From the NCBI GenBank assembly GCA_036655895.1, contig JAVVPF010000012.1, positions 1-64,000 on the forward strand: a stretch of DNA of 64,000 bases, read 5' to 3'. This document shows positions 25,201 to 48,488 of the stretch, piece by piece. The DNA comes from Cloacibacillus sp. (GTDB lineage: Bacteria > Synergistota > Synergistia > Synergistales > Synergistaceae). Each line of letters begins with the position of its first letter. The stretch's first letter is position 1. The notes beneath the pieces are model-generated. The model had not been told where the DNA came from and did not search any database. It saw nothing but the letters and a program-made list of their open reading frames with translations. The position numbers and the translations under genes are program-made.

Positions 25201-25321
25201 AGGTCCGCTATTTAGAAATCCTGCTCTATTGTGCAGTCAAAACGCCTGCGCCAGCACAATATTTGCGGTATTCAATTTTGTCTTGATAATAAAACCGTCT
25301 TTGATCTTAAATTTCCGCTGC

Positions 25322-25370
25322 AAAAAACCTCCAATGGAGCGCTCTATACTTTCGCACTCCATTGGAGGTT
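25322..25370 (-). terminator. Terminator of the split-lyase operon (minus strand)
   Basis: AACCTCCAATGGAG and CTCCATTGGAGGTT are a perfect 14-bp inverted repeat. Read on the minus strand the stem is followed by TTTTTTG, so it ends the transcript of the two lyase genes; the convergent Lrp gene may use it less well. Confidence 0.85.
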
Positions 25371-25412: not shown

Positions 25413-26507
25413 TTATGCCGTCATCAGGTCGGCTAAGATATCTATGCCGCTGTCGGCTTTTCTTGCTGCGGAATAACTGAATTCGACGTGGTCTTCCTGT
25501 CCGCCCTTGGTGGGGATGGAATCTGCGCTGACCTGCATCGTCATGCCGCGCAGCCTGTTTAATAGCGCTGCCGCGCGAGGCGTTTCGCCGTTTGCTTCGA
25601 CTAGGTCGTAGGCCATCTCCGCTATTACTACGCTTAAGAGGTCCATCGCGTATCCCACCTGCGTGTTGCTGCAGTTGCAGCCCATGACGGCCTCATAGCT
25701 TCCGTCTTCGAGCTCGAAGAGGTTCGGGTTGTCGCAGGTGATGTTGTTTTCAAAGTCCAGTATCCTGCCGACGAAGGCCGCGGTCTCTTCGCAGGCCGCT
25801 ATCTTTTCGCTGCTGGCTTTGCCGCCTACCGCGGCGCGGTATTTTTCAAAGAGGCAGGAGAATTTGATGAAGGAGACGACGGCGATACTCTGGCTCATTG
25901 TGGAGCCGTTCATCTGCGCGAGGACCTCTTTGCATTCGAGGACGAAGGTCTCAGCCATTCCCGCCGCGCGATATGCTTCGGAGGCAGGCACGACTTTGCC
26001 GTTTACGATCGCTCTTGCGCCTGGAAGCCCAGCCACGGTCATTATGTTCTGCGCGATGGGCGCGAGGTCGCTCAGTCCGGTGGAGCCGTCGCCGTGCACC
26101 GCGGGCGATATCCCGCGGTTGAACATCTCAAGCAGTCTTTCTATCAGTTCCACACGCACGGCGGAGTAGGCGCGGCAGAGGATGTTTGCGCGAAGAAGTA
26201 GCTCCGTCCTTGTAACGACGGCGGGCAGATAATCTCCAAAGCCGGCTCCGTGGACGTAGGGCAGAGTCCTGTTCCATTCGATATGTTTGTCGGGCGGCAC
26301 AGGCACGTCTTTCAGCGCGCCAAGGCCGGTGTTGATGCCGTATACGGCGGGCGCGCCTACTTCAAGCCATTTGTCTATCTGTTTGCGCGTCTTGAGGCAG
26401 CGAGCGCGCGCCTCGTCCGAAATTGTCACGTTTGGGCGGTCGTCGCTCAATATTTTCGCAACGTCGTCTACAGTGAGTGTATAACCGTCTAAAATATATG
26501 TTCCCAC
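25413..26507 (-). CDS. HAL/PAL-family aromatic amino acid lyase-like subunit A (incomplete, atypical MIO site)
   Basis: This 364-aa protein matches histidine ammonia-lyase in several blocks: YGINTGLG (Tyr56), LPYVHGAG (His86), AQMNGST (Asn200), DNPNLF (259-264) and SIPTKGGQEDHV (Glu338). Compared with HutH (about 500 aa) it lacks the block containing the YSLRCQPQ motif, the LPPFLVE...NSGFM block, and most of the C-terminus. The MIO-forming Ala-Ser-Gly is not there: the site reads GDGSTGLSDLAP (139-150). The missing blocks are present in the gene 13 bases upstream, so the two products probably assemble together. GTG 26507 follows GGGAGG. Substrate and reaction are not assignable. Confidence 0.8.
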   Translation of the reverse strand: MGTYILDGYTLTVDDVAKILSDDRPNVTISDEARARCLKTRKQIDKWLEVGAPAVYGINTGLGALKDVPVPPDKHIEWNRTLPYVHGAGFGDYLPAVVTRTELLLRANILCRAYSAVRVELIERLLEMFNRGISPAVHGDGSTGLSDLAPIAQNIMTVAGLPGARAIVNGKVVPASEAYRAAGMAETFVLECKEVLAQMNGSTMSQSIAVVSFIKFSCLFEKYRAAVGGKASSEKIAACEETAAFVGRILDFENNITCDNPNLFELEDGSYEAVMGCNCSNTQVGYAMDLLSVVIAEMAYDLVEANGETPRAAALLNRLRGMTMQVSADSIPTKGGQEDHVEFSYSAARKADSGIDILADLMTA

Positions 26508-26520
26508 AACGATTCCTCCC

Positions 26521-27756
26521 TTACTTCAATGTTCCGACGGCGGATTCGGCCGCCTTCAGTATTTCGCCGCCGGCCGTCAGGTGTTCCGCCGCTATCATGT
26601 CGGGCGCCGTAAAGCGGTTTTCTACCATCATCGGAATCTCCTCGCGCAGGCGTCTGTAGGCCGCTTTTGTGCCGGCTCCGAACGCAAATTCGGGGATCTT
26701 GGCGTGCACGATGTCAAGCGCCTGTGCGGACATCAAGATCTCTACCGCCATGACGCGGTTCAGCTTGAGGATAAGTTCAAAGAGCCTGCTTACGGCGAAA
26801 TAGGCGTGGCAGGAGTTCGTGCGCTTTATCGCCGCCGTCGGCAGCGTCAGCAGTTTCAGCTCCGCAGTCTCCGCCGCCTGAGTCGATTGGACGATGGGGA
26901 AGCCGTAGTTGATGCCAAGTTCGTCCGCTACGAGGTTCATCGGCAGCCCGTAGGAGAGCCTTGTGTCGTTGAGGCGGAAGCCGCGGCGTTCGCTGATGTG
27001 CGCAAGGTCGGCAAGGGCCGTCGCAAGAGCGTTCATCGCGTATTCTGTCCTGTATAGCTCCGCTGCGCCGCTGTTCCAGTCTTTTACGACCTGCTCTTCG
27101 CACCAGTGGAAGATGTCGCGCGCTCCGCCGTGCGTCTGCGGCGTCGCGCGCACGCAGATGGCGTCCTGCACACGGGGTTTTTTGTCGTACCCGTAGGCGT
27201 ATCTGCCTTCGTCCGTCGTAAGCTGCGAGCCTTCGGTGATGCGGCGCACGTTTTCGGCGGTTTCGATTTGTCCGGGGAAGGGGCGTCCCAGTTCGTGGAG
27301 CCTTTTGTCAAAAGCGCCTAATTCACCGCGTATGGCTTCAAGGTTCATGGATACGGCGACGTCGGCCGTCTTCACGGCAATATCGGCGCGGGCGCAGATA
27401 TATGCGGCCATGCCCAGCGTCACGCAGTTGCAGCTTTTAACAAAGGCGCGTTCGCCGCAGGAGAGGGCGGCTTCTTTTGCAAGAGCCTCCGTCAGTATCG
27501 CGGCAAGAGTCTCTTCGTCGGCGCGGTCGAAGGGCAGCTCCGGCAATGAGCCTGACGCAAGACATTTCTCCGCCGCTTTCTTAAGATCGGAATAATTTTT
27601 CTCGGCCGCGCCTTTTATCAAAAGTTCCAAGATAACGGCAACACAGCCAATCGGAAGATTTTCAGCCATTGTGCAGCATCCTGCGCTTACGACGGCTTCT
27701 TTTGCGCCGCAGCGCTGCGCTGATTCAAGATCGTGGGCCCACAGCAAATTTTCCAA
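26521..27756 (-). CDS. HAL/PAL-family aromatic amino acid lyase-like subunit B (complementary blocks)
   Basis: This 411-aa protein contains the HAL blocks missing from subunit A: an AFDKRLHELGRPFPGQI segment near 148, RVQDAICVRATPQTHG (195-210, matching HutH VQDPYSLRCQPQ, with Arg203 kept and the tyrosine replaced by Ile), and LPMNLVADELGINYGF (271-286), plus the helical C-terminus. It lacks the Tyr53/His83 region and the DNPLVF/NFH and QED blocks. An ASG-S-L-P tripeptide at 67-69 might be a displaced MIO triad or chance. TTG 27756 follows GGAGGTG. It is the first gene of the operon and divergent from the SARP regulator. Confidence 0.78.
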   Translation of the reverse strand: MENLLWAHDLESAQRCGAKEAVVSAGCCTMAENLPIGCVAVILELLIKGAAEKNYSDLKKAAEKCLASGSLPELPFDRADEETLAAILTEALAKEAALSCGERAFVKSCNCVTLGMAAYICARADIAVKTADVAVSMNLEAIRGELGAFDKRLHELGRPFPGQIETAENVRRITEGSQLTTDEGRYAYGYDKKPRVQDAICVRATPQTHGGARDIFHWCEEQVVKDWNSGAAELYRTEYAMNALATALADLAHISERRGFRLNDTRLSYGLPMNLVADELGINYGFPIVQSTQAAETAELKLLTLPTAAIKRTNSCHAYFAVSRLFELILKLNRVMAVEILMSAQALDIVHAKIPEFAFGAGTKAAYRRLREEIPMMVENRFTAPDMIAAEHLTAGGEILKAAESAVGTLK

Positions 27757-41630: not shown

Positions 41631-42638
41631 ATGAAGCCGGAAATAAGAATAGCCGTCACAGGCGGCCGCGGAAAAAGCGGCGTAACGCGCCTTATACACG
41701 CGGGCCTTGCCGCCTGCGGTCTTCGCGTGCGTTCGCGCATAACGGGCGTGCTGCCGCGCGAGCTGTCGCGCGACGGCGAGCGCGCCATCATGCGTTCCGG
41801 CGCCGCCTCCGCCTATGAGGCCGGATGGTGGTTTCGGCGGCTGCCGCAAGACACGCAGGCCGTAGTCTGTGAAAACAGCGCCGTTACACCTGCGCTGCAG
41901 GGGCTTCTTCCCGCCTTTATAGCGCCTTCGGTCACGGTGCTCACAAATACCGCACTGGACCACACGGAGCTTTGGGGCGCCGATGAAACTTCCGTGCTGC
42001 GCGCGCTCTCTGAGGCGCTGCCGCGCGGAGGCAAAGTCGTGCTGCCGGAGGCGCTTGCCGTGCGGTTAGATATGCGCCTGCTTGCCGAAGAACGTGCGCT
42101 TTCTCTCTTTCCCGTCGCGCCCGACCCCAGCCTTCCCCATCCGTTTTCGATCAACATCGCGCTTGCGCTTGCCGCCTGTTTTTTATCCGGCGCGGACGAG
42201 GCGGTGGCGCGCGCCGCGATGGAGAGCCTTCCGCCCGACATCGCGGACTCCTGTATAATAGAAACTGGCGGTGCGCAGCTTGCATTCGCCTTTTCAATAA
42301 ACGACCTGCAAAGCACGGAAAGCTATTTCACGCAGCTTGGCTGGGAGGTTCGTGACACCGTATGTCTTTACAATCACAGGGCGGACAGGAGCGCGCGCTT
42401 TGACGCCTTTTATCCGTGGATGAAGACAGCCGCGTGGCGTGAGGTGCAGATAATAGGCGACAGACCTCCGCGGCTCAGGGATAAATATGTGCCGCTTTGC
42501 GGCACCGCCGCCTTTGAGGCGCTTGTAATAAAAAATAAAAAGAGCTTCGGCTGCGGCAACACCGTCTACGGACTGCCGCTGGAATTCAAACTAGAGACCG
42601 AAGCCGGAAAGAAGATGCGCGGCATAGATGGAAGATAA
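41631..42638 (+). CDS. pgsB: Poly-gamma-glutamate synthase subunit PgsB/CapB-like (Mur ligase fold)
   Basis: This 335-aa protein begins RIAVTGGRGKSGVTRLIHAGL, an ATP-binding P-loop of the Mur-ligase type in the form seen in PgsB, followed by VTVLTNTALDHTELWG, the PgsB/Mur central motif. PgsB forms amide bonds between the gamma-carboxyl of glutamate and the next amino group. At 335 aa it is shorter than typical PgsB (about 390). It overlaps the pgsC-like gene by 11 bases. No strong ribosome site precedes ATG 41631. Another amino acid polymer is possible. Confidence 0.82.
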   Translation: MKPEIRIAVTGGRGKSGVTRLIHAGLAACGLRVRSRITGVLPRELSRDGERAIMRSGAASAYEAGWWFRRLPQDTQAVVCENSAVTPALQGLLPAFIAPSVTVLTNTALDHTELWGADETSVLRALSEALPRGGKVVLPEALAVRLDMRLLAEERALSLFPVAPDPSLPHPFSINIALALAACFLSGADEAVARAAMESLPPDIADSCIIETGGAQLAFAFSINDLQSTESYFTQLGWEVRDTVCLYNHRADRSARFDAFYPWMKTAAWREVQIIGDRPPRLRDKYVPLCGTAAFEALVIKNKKSFGCGNTVYGLPLEFKLETEAGKKMRGIDGR

Positions 42639-43074
42639 TTTAACGCTTATCCTAGCGGCCGGAGTGGCCGCCTCGATGATATGGCACAGGCGCACGGGGC
42701 TCTCATCGGGAGGCATAGTATCGCCGGGCGTTCTGGCAATGACGATGGGCGACCTACGCCGCGTCGCGGCTGGCATCGCCGTGGCGGTGGCGGTGGCCCT
42801 TGTTCTGCGGCTCATCCGGCACTTTAGGCCGCTTTTTGGACACGAACGCACAGGTACCGCGATGCTGCTTGCGCTTGTCATACGTTTTGCCGCGGGAGGC
42901 GCCTCCGCCGACCCGCTGTGGTTCGGCTGGGTGGTGCCGGGACTGATCGGCGCGGACGTTGAAAGACAGGGCGCGGTGCAGACGCTTTCATCGCTCTTTA
43001 TCACAGCCTTTGCCGCGCTCTTTTTCGTAACGCTCGCCAAAGCCGCGTCGGAGTACCTTCTGCAATGGATATAG
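42628..43074 (+). CDS. pgsC: Poly-gamma-glutamate biosynthesis membrane protein PgsC/CapC-like
   Basis: This 148-aa membrane protein has about four helices and the PgsC signatures RTGLSSGGIVSPGVLAM (near residue 21) and WFGWVVPGLIGADVERQG (near 98). PgsC forms the membrane part of the polymerase with PgsB. It overlaps its neighbours on both sides (11 and 10 bases), showing a tightly coupled operon. No PgsA/CapA or PgsE gene follows. Confidence 0.85.
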   Translation: MEDNLTLILAAGVAASMIWHRRTGLSSGGIVSPGVLAMTMGDLRRVAAGIAVAVAVALVLRLIRHFRPLFGHERTGTAMLLALVIRFAAGGASADPLWFGWVVPGLIGADVERQGAVQTLSSLFITAFAALFFVTLAKAASEYLLQWI

Positions 43075-44114
43075 CAGATTTTCGCGGGTATAAGGCCTCC
43101 GTGCGCCGCAAGCGGCTTGCCGCGGGCGCGCTGCTTGTTGTTGCGGCGCTTCTTATGGCGCTTGCCTGGTATCTTTCCGGCTCGTCGCTCTCACCGGAGG
43201 AGGAAAAGCTTTACGCGCGCGTCACACGCGCCCACCAGTCTATAACCGCCTTCAAAAAAGAACTCGGCATCTCGACGCCAAAGGCGGACGACCCTCACGC
43301 AACGGGCCTGATAGGGCTTGAATGGAGCCCGCTTACTACCACGATAGGGGCGCCTGCCGCGAAACGTACGGCGGCGGACGCAAGATGGGCCGTCATCACC
43401 TCGCGCTGGCTAGACACTCTGGGCGTCAAGCGCGGCGACAGCGTAGTGGTGCTCTCTTCCTCATCTTTTCCCGGCATGATACTGAACGTGCTTACGGCGC
43501 TTGAAGCGCGCGGCGTGAAGGTGACGATGCTGCTCTCGCTCGGTTCTTCCACCTACGGTGCGAACGATCCGCGCGCTACGTGGCCCGACATCGCGGCGCG
43601 CCTGCGAAAAGAGGGGCTGCTGCACACCGCCGCCACCTATTATTCTTATGGCGGCGATGAAGACAACGGCGGCGGGATAAGCGGCGAGGGGCTCCAAATG
43701 ATGCGAGATGCCGCCGCGCGCTACGGCGTGCCGCTTGTCCCAAAGAAAAATCTGCGTGAGATGGTGGCGTGGAAGATGTCGCTCATAAAAAAAATAGATC
43801 CAAAGGCGGTGATCAGCATCGGAGGCTCACATTCGTCAATGGGCGACGACGACGCCGTACTGAAGCTTGAACCGGGCCTCCATCTCAAACCGTCGCCGTA
43901 TGCCGGAGACGGACTCATCGGAGCTTCGCTTAATGCGGGCTACCCGGTAATACACCTGCTCAACATGAAAGAGCTATGCGCGCAGAACCACGTTCCGTTT
44001 GACGCCGCGCCCTCCGCGCTGCTCTACGGCGGCCGCTCCGCGCTCTTTTCGCTTGCCGGTCTTTTTATATTTTTTGCCGCGCTCTTTTGTTACCCGCGCT
44101 GGAAAATGATATAA
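43065..44114 (+). CDS. pgsW: Poly-gamma-glutamate system protein PgsW-like
   Basis: This 349-aa protein has a short cytoplasmic start, one helix (about 18-37), a large extracytoplasmic domain and a last helix (about 322-342). Segments such as TTTIGAPAAKRTAADARWA, VVVLSSSSFPGMILNVL and SIGGSHSSMGDDD agree with the poly-gamma-glutamate system protein family found beside pgsB and pgsC in clostridia and spirochaetes. Its biochemical role is unknown; it replaces the capsule-anchoring proteins of Bacillus in these systems. It overlaps pgsC by ten bases. Confidence 0.78.
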   Translation: MDIADFRGYKASVRRKRLAAGALLVVAALLMALAWYLSGSSLSPEEEKLYARVTRAHQSITAFKKELGISTPKADDPHATGLIGLEWSPLTTTIGAPAAKRTAADARWAVITSRWLDTLGVKRGDSVVVLSSSSFPGMILNVLTALEARGVKVTMLLSLGSSTYGANDPRATWPDIAARLRKEGLLHTAATYYSYGGDEDNGGGISGEGLQMMRDAAARYGVPLVPKKNLREMVAWKMSLIKKIDPKAVISIGGSHSSMGDDDAVLKLEPGLHLKPSPYAGDGLIGASLNAGYPVIHLLNMKELCAQNHVPFDAAPSALLYGGRSALFSLAGLFIFFAALFCYPRWKMI

Positions 44115-45830: not shown

Positions 45831-47132
45831 ATGTTCGCTTACGCCTATACTATCTTGGCCATAATAGTAGCGGCCTTTTTAGTAGCAAAATTCTTTAAAC
45901 TATCAACGGAGCTTTCTATGCTCTTAGCAGCGTGCGCCGCGGCTTTATACCACGGCGTCACCTACGCGGGCGACATCTTCCCCGTGCGCTACATCGTTGA
46001 AGGCATGTTCACCTATTTCGACGTCTGCCTCATCTTCATAACGGCGACCTTTTTCATGTCGCTCATTAAAGAATCTGGCGGCGTCGCCTTCATCGTGCGC
46101 AAAATAGTGGCGAGGTTCAGGACGCGCCGCATGGTGTGCCTGCTGCTGCTCACGCTGGTCATGCTGATCCCCGGAGCGCTCACTGGTTCGGGCGCTACGA
46201 CGGTGCTTACGGTGGGCGCGCTTGTCGGTTCCGTGCTTGCCGTGATGGGCGTCAGCGCTGAAAAACGCGTAGCCGCGATATTCCTCACGGCGGCTATGAG
46301 CGCGGCGGCTCCCCCCATCAATATATGGGCGATGATGGCGGCGGCCGGCGCGAACATGCCCTACGTCGGCTTCACGTGGCCGCTTGCGATACTTTCCGTC
46401 TTTGGCGCCGTCTTTTCCATGTTCTACCTTGCGTGGGGCGGAGACGCCATCGACGAAAAACAGGTGCTTGCGCTGCTGCCCGAGCCTCCTGAGAAGATGA
46501 GCTGGATGCGCGTCATAATCCCCTTCATCGTTCTTGGCGCGCTCATCGTGGCGGGACGAGTCTTCCCATTCAGCTTCCCGATACTGGGCCTTCCGCTCAT
46601 ATTCATGATAGCGGCCGGCGCGGCCATCCTGCTCAGCCCCATCAAGCTGGACATCTGGAAGGTCTCCTGCGACACCGTCACCAACCTTCTGCCGCTGGTC
46701 GGCATCATGGTGGTGGTAGGCGCGCTCAACGAAGTGATGGCGATGACAGGTGCGCGCGGACTGATTTCGCTGCTCATAGTCACGCTGCCGATCACCACGC
46801 TCTTTGCGACACTCTTTTTTATACTCCCCATCTCGGAGGGTATGCTGCAGTACGCCGTAGCCCCGCTCATCGGAGTGCCGCTCATAATGCTCTTCAACAT
46901 GAAGGGGCTCAACCCGATAATCTGCCTATCCGCGATGGCGACGCTCTGGCCGCTTGGCGACTGTCTGCCGCCTACCGCCGTAGTCGGACGCGCCGCGGTG
47001 ATGGAGCTGGACTACAAAGGCAGCTACTACGCGGGCTTTGTAAAGAGCTGCATCGTACCCTTCATAGCCATCTCTGCCGTCTGCACGCTATTCCTTGTTT
47101 TCAGCAAGGAACTGTCGTTCTTGGCGCAGTAG
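45831..47132 (+). CDS. DctM-like (TRAP/ion transporter superfamily) large permease
   Basis: This 433-aa protein has about twelve hydrophobic segments in two halves. Each half has a small-residue motif of ion-transporter-superfamily permeases, for example IPGALTGSGATTVLTVGALVGSV (near 108) and the second-half WPLGDCLPPTAVVGRAA (near 380). It resembles TRAP large subunits, but no standard TRAP receptor or four-helix small subunit is beside it; instead it is preceded by the secreted DUF6305-like protein and followed by a 54-aa membrane protein. The transported compound is unknown; the hydrolase genes downstream suggest an acylated amino acid or similar. Confidence 0.75.
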   Translation: MFAYAYTILAIIVAAFLVAKFFKLSTELSMLLAACAAALYHGVTYAGDIFPVRYIVEGMFTYFDVCLIFITATFFMSLIKESGGVAFIVRKIVARFRTRRMVCLLLLTLVMLIPGALTGSGATTVLTVGALVGSVLAVMGVSAEKRVAAIFLTAAMSAAAPPINIWAMMAAAGANMPYVGFTWPLAILSVFGAVFSMFYLAWGGDAIDEKQVLALLPEPPEKMSWMRVIIPFIVLGALIVAGRVFPFSFPILGLPLIFMIAAGAAILLSPIKLDIWKVSCDTVTNLLPLVGIMVVVGALNEVMAMTGARGLISLLIVTLPITTLFATLFFILPISEGMLQYAVAPLIGVPLIMLFNMKGLNPIICLSAMATLWPLGDCLPPTAVVGRAAVMELDYKGSYYAGFVKSCIVPFIAISAVCTLFLVFSKELSFLAQ

Positions 47133-47324: not shown

Positions 47325-48488
47325 ATGACCAAATTAAATGCAGTAAAGATAATAGCGGCTGTTGCTGCCATCGGTGCCATCGCCGTCTCAGGCAAAGAGT
47401 TCCGCGACATGTGGAACTTCAAGGAGCCCTCTGTCATCGGACCGCAGACCATAGTCAAAAGACTTTCGGACTACGAGCCGACGATGAAGGGCACGACCAA
47501 CGACAGCAACATTTACATCATCGACAGCGGAAAGCCCGGCGGCACCGTCATGGTACTCGGCGGAACTCATCCAGAGGAGCCGGCCAGCAACATTTCGACC
47601 GCACTGCTTCTTGAAAACGCGAAGCTGGACAAGGGACGCCTCATCATCGTCAACCGCGCAAACAGAAGCGCGTCGCTCGCCACGCGTAGCGGCGAAGCCT
47701 ATCCCTCATACGACCACGTCAAGACCCCTTGGGGCGAAAAGACCTGGCGTACCGGAGACCGCGCGGCAAACCCGCTAGACTCATGGCCCGACCCAGAGGT
47801 CTATATCCATTATCCAAGCAGGCAGATGCTCGCCTACATGGATATACGCAACTTAAACAGAGCGTGGCCGGGGCGCAAGGACGGCCTCATAGCCGAACGC
47901 ACCACGCACGCGCTGATGCAGCTCATCAAAAAAGAGAAGGTCAACCTCGTCATGGACCTTCACGAAGCCGAGCTTGAATATCCCGTTATCAACACCATCG
48001 TCACGCACGAAAAGGGACAGGACGTAGCCGCGATGACCTCTATGGGCCTCACGGCCAACGAGTTCAAAGTGCCGCTCAATATGGAGTTTTCGCCCAAGGC
48101 GCTGCACGGCCTCTCTCACCGCGAGATAGGCGACCACTCCGACGCGGCCTCCATCCTCTTTGAGGTGGCCGAACCGTTCCTTGACCGTATCCGCGGCATC
48201 ACCGACGAAAAACTGCTGATGACCGGCAAGGATGATTTCGTGCGTAAAGCGGGCGACCACAAGCTGCTCTATTCGCCCATCGACGAAAACGGTTGGCCCA
48301 TCGACACGCGCGTAGGCCGCCATGTCTCCACCGTGCTTGACGCCATCAAAAACTACAGCGACATGAACCCGGACAAAGCCGTAGTCGTCGAAGGCGTGCC
48401 GAGATACAAAGAGATAATAGAAAAGGGGCTCGGCAAATTCTTCAAAAACCCCGCAGACGCGCCCGCGGACAAAGTCGTTTACGACTAA
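47325..48488 (+). CDS. Membrane-anchored AstE/AspA-like zinc deacylase
   Basis: This 387-aa protein has an N-terminal hydrophobic anchor or signal (about 5-22) and a carboxypeptidase-like domain of the succinylglutamate desuccinylase/aspartoacylase family. Zinc ligands are suggested by LGGTHPEEPASN (His and Glu near 81-84) and VMDLHEAELEY (His near 206). It would remove an acyl group from an amino acid or act as a carboxypeptidase outside the cytoplasm. As the fourth gene of the DUF6305/permease operon it may process the compound that is transported. A terminator follows. Confidence 0.78.
   Translation: MTKLNAVKIIAAVAAIGAIAVSGKEFRDMWNFKEPSVIGPQTIVKRLSDYEPTMKGTTNDSNIYIIDSGKPGGTVMVLGGTHPEEPASNISTALLLENAKLDKGRLIIVNRANRSASLATRSGEAYPSYDHVKTPWGEKTWRTGDRAANPLDSWPDPEVYIHYPSRQMLAYMDIRNLNRAWPGRKDGLIAERTTHALMQLIKKEKVNLVMDLHEAELEYPVINTIVTHEKGQDVAAMTSMGLTANEFKVPLNMEFSPKALHGLSHREIGDHSDAASILFEVAEPFLDRIRGITDEKLLMTGKDDFVRKAGDHKLLYSPIDENGWPIDTRVGRHVSTVLDAIKNYSDMNPDKAVVVEGVPRYKEIIEKGLGKFFKNPADAPADKVVYD

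Follow-up and report, generated by a model that had tools for sequence, protein, structure and literature searches.

The window (the whole 64,000-nucleotide stretch of Cloacibacillus sp. DNA that was analysed) carries on its minus strand two adjacent genes, B and then A, whose coordinates are collected in Table 1 with those of the motifs discussed below. As the sequence-only reading had it, both open reading frames are intact and lie 13 bases apart in the window sequence, and each is preceded by a strong Shine-Dalgarno sequence. A is followed by a 17-nt inverted repeat (94%, at 25326-25370) and then, on the minus strand, by a T-run. A consensus terminator scan gave no match for this B-A terminator, whose loop is longer than the scan permits. 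The regulator gene that diverges from B has homologs divergent from B in 5 of the 6 Synergistota-like pair loci, and homologs lie near the pair also in Cuneatibacter, Acidaminobacter, and one Clostridium metagenome-assembled genome (MAG); its product is a probable pathway regulator. The name Synergistota-like is given here to the window and its relatives on a Synerg-CTERM match below threshold. Elsewhere in the window, four plus-strand ORFs of 335-433 aa (41631-42638, 43065-44114, 45831-47132, and 47325-48488) gave no Pfam match at 1e-8.

Table 1. Features of the B-A locus (positions in the window; residue numbers are those of HutH)
Feature	Position	Strand	Basis or remark
Subunit B gene	26521..27756	-	411 aa, TTG start, GGAGGTG ribosome site
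Subunit A gene	25413..26507	-	364 aa, GTG start, GGGAGG ribosome site
13-base B-A intergenic junction carrying the ribosome site of A (GGGAGGAATCGTT)	26508..26520	-	
Probable intrinsic terminator of the B-A transcript	25321..25370	-	17-nt inverted repeat, then T-run
Divergent AAA/BTAD-type regulator, 1024 aa	28060..31134	+	probable pathway regulator
YGINTG in A (Tyr53 loop)	26325..26342	-	alignment
GSTGLSDL in A (MIO-site remnant, one residue shorter than GSVGASGDL)	26064..26087	-	alignment
MNG in A (Asn195)	25905..25913	-	alignment
MGCNC in A (Phe329 replaced by an invariant Cys)	25671..25685	-	alignment
QED in A (Glu414)	25491..25499	-	alignment
QDAICVR in B (Gln277 kept, Tyr280 replaced by Ile, Arg283 kept)	27148..27168	-	alignment

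Both products match the Pfam model Lyase_aromatic (PF00221) far above its cut-off of 27.3, A with 220.8 bits and B with 166.9 bits, over separate stretches, and both stay under the curated cut-off of 539 of the HutH equivalog model TIGR01225 (180.6 and 137.7 bits, respectively). In an alignment to full-length HALs, with HutH residue numbering checked against PDB 1GKM/1GKJ, A spans residues ~1-205 together with the 305-345 and 400-430 segments; among its motifs are YGINTG, the region of His83, Asn195, the DNP/NFHG region, and QED, whereas residues 205-305 and 345-400 are missing, roughly. B spans residues ~195-305 and ~345-505, preceded by no more than a remnant that cannot be aligned, and is without the N-terminal catalytic half, the F329 segment, and the E414 segment. 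The segments that make up one complete chain of ~500 aa in an MIO lyase are here split over ORFs of 364 aa and 411 aa. The earlier description of A and B as HAL-family genes with complementary missing blocks is thus borne out by alignment, and we regard the two-gene split and the complementarity as well supported.

The label "ammonia-lyase" that came with this description is not supported. MIO-dependent ammonia-lyases and aminomutases (HutH, PAL, and TAL) carry an Ala/Thr/Ser-Ser-Gly triad that cyclizes to MIO, and no such triad is found in A or B. Every full-length A reads GSTG-LS-D at the position of HutH GSVG-ASG-D, B holds no counterpart of the triad, and the stretch G-S-T-G-L-S-D-L is invariant throughout alignment A3, which has 18 A sequences. 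The MIO ring is closed by the backbone nitrogen of Gly144, a residue without counterpart in any full-length A. To judge from these alignments, neither A nor B is able to form the MIO cofactor. Most catalytic positions of HutH are conserved: Tyr53, His83, Asn195, and Glu414 are invariant across A sequences, in which Phe329 is Cys, and Gln277 and Arg283 are invariant in B. The sequence-only reading had also assigned to B an intact YSLRCQPQ block; Gln277 and Arg283 of this block are present, but Tyr280 is Ile in 20 of 20 B sequences.

A true ammonia-lyase acting on histidine or a related amino acid, with an MIO-like group formed from a variant triad (G-L-S or L-S-D), would fit the retention of the four residues in A and the Ser that precedes Asp at the triad. 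We hold this to be very improbable: one triad residue is deleted, Gly144 has no counterpart, Tyr280 is replaced in every B, and this genome already has canonical HAL genes. Because the MIO triad is missing in every full-length A, the ammonia-lyase reading was rejected as the main one.

Two further proteins with altered triads came to light. In Cuneatibacter, a second, N-terminally truncated A reading GCTGLGDL lies directly 3' of an intact pair (L081:11381-12253). On contig C60 of the genome studied here, a full-length HAL-family protein (L099:4293-5825) has also lost the triad (GSVG-YL-DA) and has Leu for Tyr280; it groups with a Pseudoflavonifractor protein as a third MIO-less lineage. MIO may have been lost more than once in the HAL fold, by a one-residue deletion in the triad together with the loss of Tyr280.

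The B-A pair is rare. Relatives of A and/or B were found at 22 other loci in total, almost all of them as a B-A pair, with B directly upstream of A on the same strand wherever the order was resolved. This genome has a second pair (C3), and two pairs apiece were found in two relatives that belong to another genus. With two peptide patterns derived from the first six A sequences, 84,980 species representatives were scanned, which added 17 loci, a lower bound, in Cuneatibacter, Dethiosulfatibacter (two pairs), Acidaminobacter, clostridial MAGs, Paenibacillus and its relatives, Lawsonibacter, Pseudoflavonifractor, and Devosia. Class surveys, one for A and one for B, gave matches only in their respective seed genomes. 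Among 300 Paenibacillaceae genomes, A and B occur in the same 5, with no orphan half; this draw includes genomes already known to be pair-positive, so that 5 of 300 would be a biased estimate of prevalence, and its extra matches to the B profile, near 240 bits, are full-length HALs. Likewise, the same 3 of 101 Synergistota-like relatives have both A and B, and no orphan half was found among them. Co-occurrence had been put forward as a check of the split, and these surveys answer it: the halves are adjacent wherever the order was resolved, and neither A nor B was met alone.

The two genes have also evolved together. The trees of A and B mirror each other (r=0.944, a value reached in 0 of 10000 permutations) and have 14 of 16 splits in common, and dN/dS values of 0.07-0.18 between orthologues indicate purifying selection on both. 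Longer copies are found in Paenibacillus, Acidaminobacter, and one Clostridium MAG, with A of ~445 aa and B of 485-518 aa; the long B copies start with a recognizable, degenerate HAL N terminus that has neither the Tyr53 loop nor the MIO loop. By their sequences, these copies look like intermediates of a progressive reciprocal loss after duplication. The origin proposed from the sequence alone, duplication followed by reciprocal loss to give an obligate hetero-oligomer, is well supported by the fixed gene order, the absence of orphans, the matched trees, the intermediates, and the joint placement of the halves by AlphaFold2 described below.

Decaying gene fragments or a sequencing artefact could be suspected, since each ORF alone is an incomplete HAL and A is truncated or frameshifted in three distant genomes. 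In Lawsonibacter and Pseudoflavonifractor (L095:669-2154 and L096:1196-2693), B is followed immediately by residues 193-362 of A only, residues 1-192 not being found at the locus, and in Devosia (L097:10001-11118), A is frameshifted near residue 300, by a sequencing error or as a pseudogene. For the pair as a whole, the chance of decay or artefact is negligible, in view of the purifying selection, the occurrence in isolates of distant groups, the matched trees, and the conserved junction and order. Gene decay was rejected on dN/dS and conservation, and the earlier argument against random decay holds, with dN/dS of 0.07-0.18 and relatives that are nearly all B-A pairs.

In the full trees, A and B each form their own fully supported clade outside the ergothionase clade; B is placed next to HAL_L018/L021 (92%), and A falls on the side of the HALs. 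A quick AU test under a simpler model rejected no placement (p 0.31-0.63), a position as sister of ergothionase included, and neither ergothionase nor any named HAL group was therefore adopted as the source of A and B. The HALs L018 and L021 of the relatives, with both of which B groups, carry YGFNTGLGKLKD, and the triad of L018 is Ala-Cys-Gly rather than Ala-Ser-Gly.

The active site of HutH is assembled from Tyr53, His83, Asn195, and Glu414 of one subunit, residues 277-283 of a second, and residue 329 of a third. The first and third of these sets are present in A and the second in B. Prediction of an A-B complex was the other computational check that had been suggested. In its models, AlphaFold2 puts both halves together, with a pTM of 0.72 and a mean pLDDT of 79.5 for the B-A read-through of the window and a pTM of 0.86 and a mean pLDDT of 81.2 for that of Paenibacillus, both obtained with fused chains and a shallow alignment and without a negative control. 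The models' top PDB matches are HAL-family folds, ergothionase among them, and no split homolog with a solved structure was found among PDB chains. Random placement would be expected to score well below these pTM values, and the models imply a confident mutual arrangement of the halves. The assembled complex is probably A2B2, a tetramer in which B would supply residues 277-283 to each live site and the second A subunit its 329 loop. Such an arrangement would have two live sites per tetramer and would account for the way in which the three sets are divided between A and B.

The pair goes along with genes for the catabolism of ergothioneine, an antioxidant taken up with the diet. Each of the two relatives has one pair at the head of a cluster composed of three-subunit XDH (xanthine-dehydrogenase-type) genes, a BCCT transporter, an ergothionase homolog, and a second XDH set. 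Ergothionase, XDH, and BCCT genes adjoin the pair in Dethiosulfatibacter, ergothionase and XDH genes adjoin it in Acidaminobacter, and in a Clostridium MAG the gene order is ergothionase, XDH, B, A, HutI, so that A and HutI are immediate neighbors. A betaine-type ABC binding protein gene adjoins B in five Paenibacillus loci, and near a sixth there is a complete betaine ABC set, with no ergothionase within the flanks examined. In three of the six Synergistota-like pair loci, that of the window included, the regulator is the only such neighbor, and this genome's second pair has no linked genes of this kind. The ergothionase-BCCT-XDH cluster of this genome lies on another contig than the window (C1, L098:8540-17911); it has two XDH-type molybdenum subunits, no split pair, and a divergent BTAD-type regulator as in the pair loci.

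At the level of genomes, ergothionase accompanies every intact pair except in two partial MAGs, and it is absent where the pair looks broken (Lawsonibacter, Pseudoflavonifractor, and Devosia). It is present in 5 of 5 pair genomes versus 27 of 300 overall in Paenibacillaceae (P=4e-6) and in 3 of 3 versus 18 of 101 among the relatives (P=0.005), neither value being corrected for kinship. Urocanase is present in 19 of 19 pair genomes. Linkage alone cannot separate a hercynine-type lyase from another step of the same pathway, ergothionase being usually co-present.

The chemistry, the substrate, and the stoichiometry of the A-B enzyme are what we infer from these data. Without MIO, the enzyme would not be expected to release ammonia by the usual route. 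With its MIO-less triad and the loss of Tyr280, the pair carries two marks of ergothionase, a family member that releases trimethylamine rather than ammonia and the closest functional analogue of the pair. Our working hypothesis is that an ancestral lyase gene was duplicated, that the copies lost complementary segments, and that B and A now form an obligate two-subunit enzyme with a composite site, at which an imidazole betaine such as hercynine loses trimethylamine by elimination; to this hypothesis we give an even chance. To each live site, A would contribute Tyr53, His83, Asn195, Glu414, and the loop that was NFHG and is now NCSN, and B would contribute Gln277 and Arg283. Tyr53 of A would act as the base, His83 and Glu414 of A would hold the ring, and Arg283 of B would hold the carboxylate. 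Like ergothionase, the enzyme would act on an aromatic betaine and eliminate trimethylamine, which leaves more readily than ammonia. The substrate is most likely hercynine (N-trimethylhistidine) or another relative of ergothioneine; hercynine is the natural candidate because it would yield urocanate directly. The product, urocanate or an analogue, would pass to HutU and HutI.

The same gene order in the Clostridium MAG, which places the pair between the steps of a urocanate-type acid and of imidazolonepropionate, and the nearly constant company of ergothionase would also suit an MIO-less HAL-fold enzyme of another step in ergothioneine or imidazole catabolism, for example, a hydration, an isomerization, or a C-S step with thiourocanate, urocanate, or one of their derivatives as the substrate. 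We judge such a step unlikely, if still a serious contender. Urocanase in all 19 pair genomes means that the ring hydratase is not missing, and a ring hydratase is weakened as a candidate. The C-S bond in gut ergothioneine catabolism is already reported to be cut reductively by an XDH-family enzyme (PMC12771579), and the Paenibacillus pairs, next to betaine transporters and with no ergothionase in their flanks, suggest an imported betaine as the substrate.

The loss of the defining cofactor and the large conserved regulator divergent from the Synergistota-like pairs raise the idea of a noncatalytic pseudo-enzyme complex, that is, a ligand sensor, carrier, or regulator that binds ergothioneine-type metabolites or partners ergothionase. 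This appears improbable to us: the invariance of Tyr53, His83, Asn195, Glu414, Gln277, and Arg283 across distant bacteria is more than a scaffold needs, and the linkage in Clostridia and Paenibacillus is metabolic, not regulatory.

If the trimethylamine-lyase hypothesis is right about the substrate, the pair would be a new enzyme of ergothioneine and hercynine catabolism and possibly a gut-bacterial route to trimethylamine. In the open literature searched, we found no publication that describes a HAL split into incomplete subunits or a lyase acting on hercynine, and novelty is provisional. As a whole, the proposal of an undescribed family of two-subunit, MIO-less lyases of gut and soil bacteria, which arose by reciprocal degeneration of a duplicated homotetramer, have one composite site, and act as trimethylamine-lyases on hercynine-type betaines, is offered tentatively, with clearly less than an even chance of holding in full. 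Generic family models label such a pair only as HAL-like. HAL-type enzymes are the textbook case of active sites shared by identical subunits, and the pair looks like a natural experiment in which this sharing let two copies each discard what the partner supplies; the partly reduced intermediates of Paenibacillus make the evolution of an obligate heteromer directly testable.

Among known systems, ergothionase, the ergothioneine trimethylamine-lyase (PDB 6S7J, Treponema denticola), is a HAL fold without MIO (PMC13405746). Ergothionases read GSVG-(E/A/Q)(G/A)-D at the triad and QD(P/A)L for QDxY, and both changes, a triad one residue shorter and an aliphatic residue for Tyr280, are found in A and B. 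Ergothionase genes also cluster with those of betaine transporters and XDH. However, ergothionase is a single full-length chain, whereas A and B are two chains outside its clade, and its residues differ at two positions: Asn195 is kept in A but is Ser in the two ergothionases that were aligned, and position 329 is Cys in A but Phe in ergothionase. On these residues, the pocket of A would not be simply that of ergothionase. With HutH (PDB 1B8F/1GKM), the pair shares the fold, Tyr53, His83, Asn195, Gln277, Arg283, and Glu414, but HutH is a homotetramer of one ~510-aa chain with MIO, whereas A and B are two chains without MIO, Tyr280, or Phe329. The XDH-family C-S reductase, or thiourocanate desulfhydrase, as described in PMC12771579 and PMC13405746 (Feng 2025, JACS), is linked to the pair by the XDH-type genes that adjoin several pairs; it is a molybdenum enzyme and has no relation to A and B. 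Mixed tetramers of HAL-fold proteins occur also in tobacco PAL. The partners in these heterotetramers are full PAL isoforms, whereas A and B are each without what the other has. For the mixed tetramers of HAL-fold paralogues in tobacco, Reichert 2009 is cited in PMC9262799.
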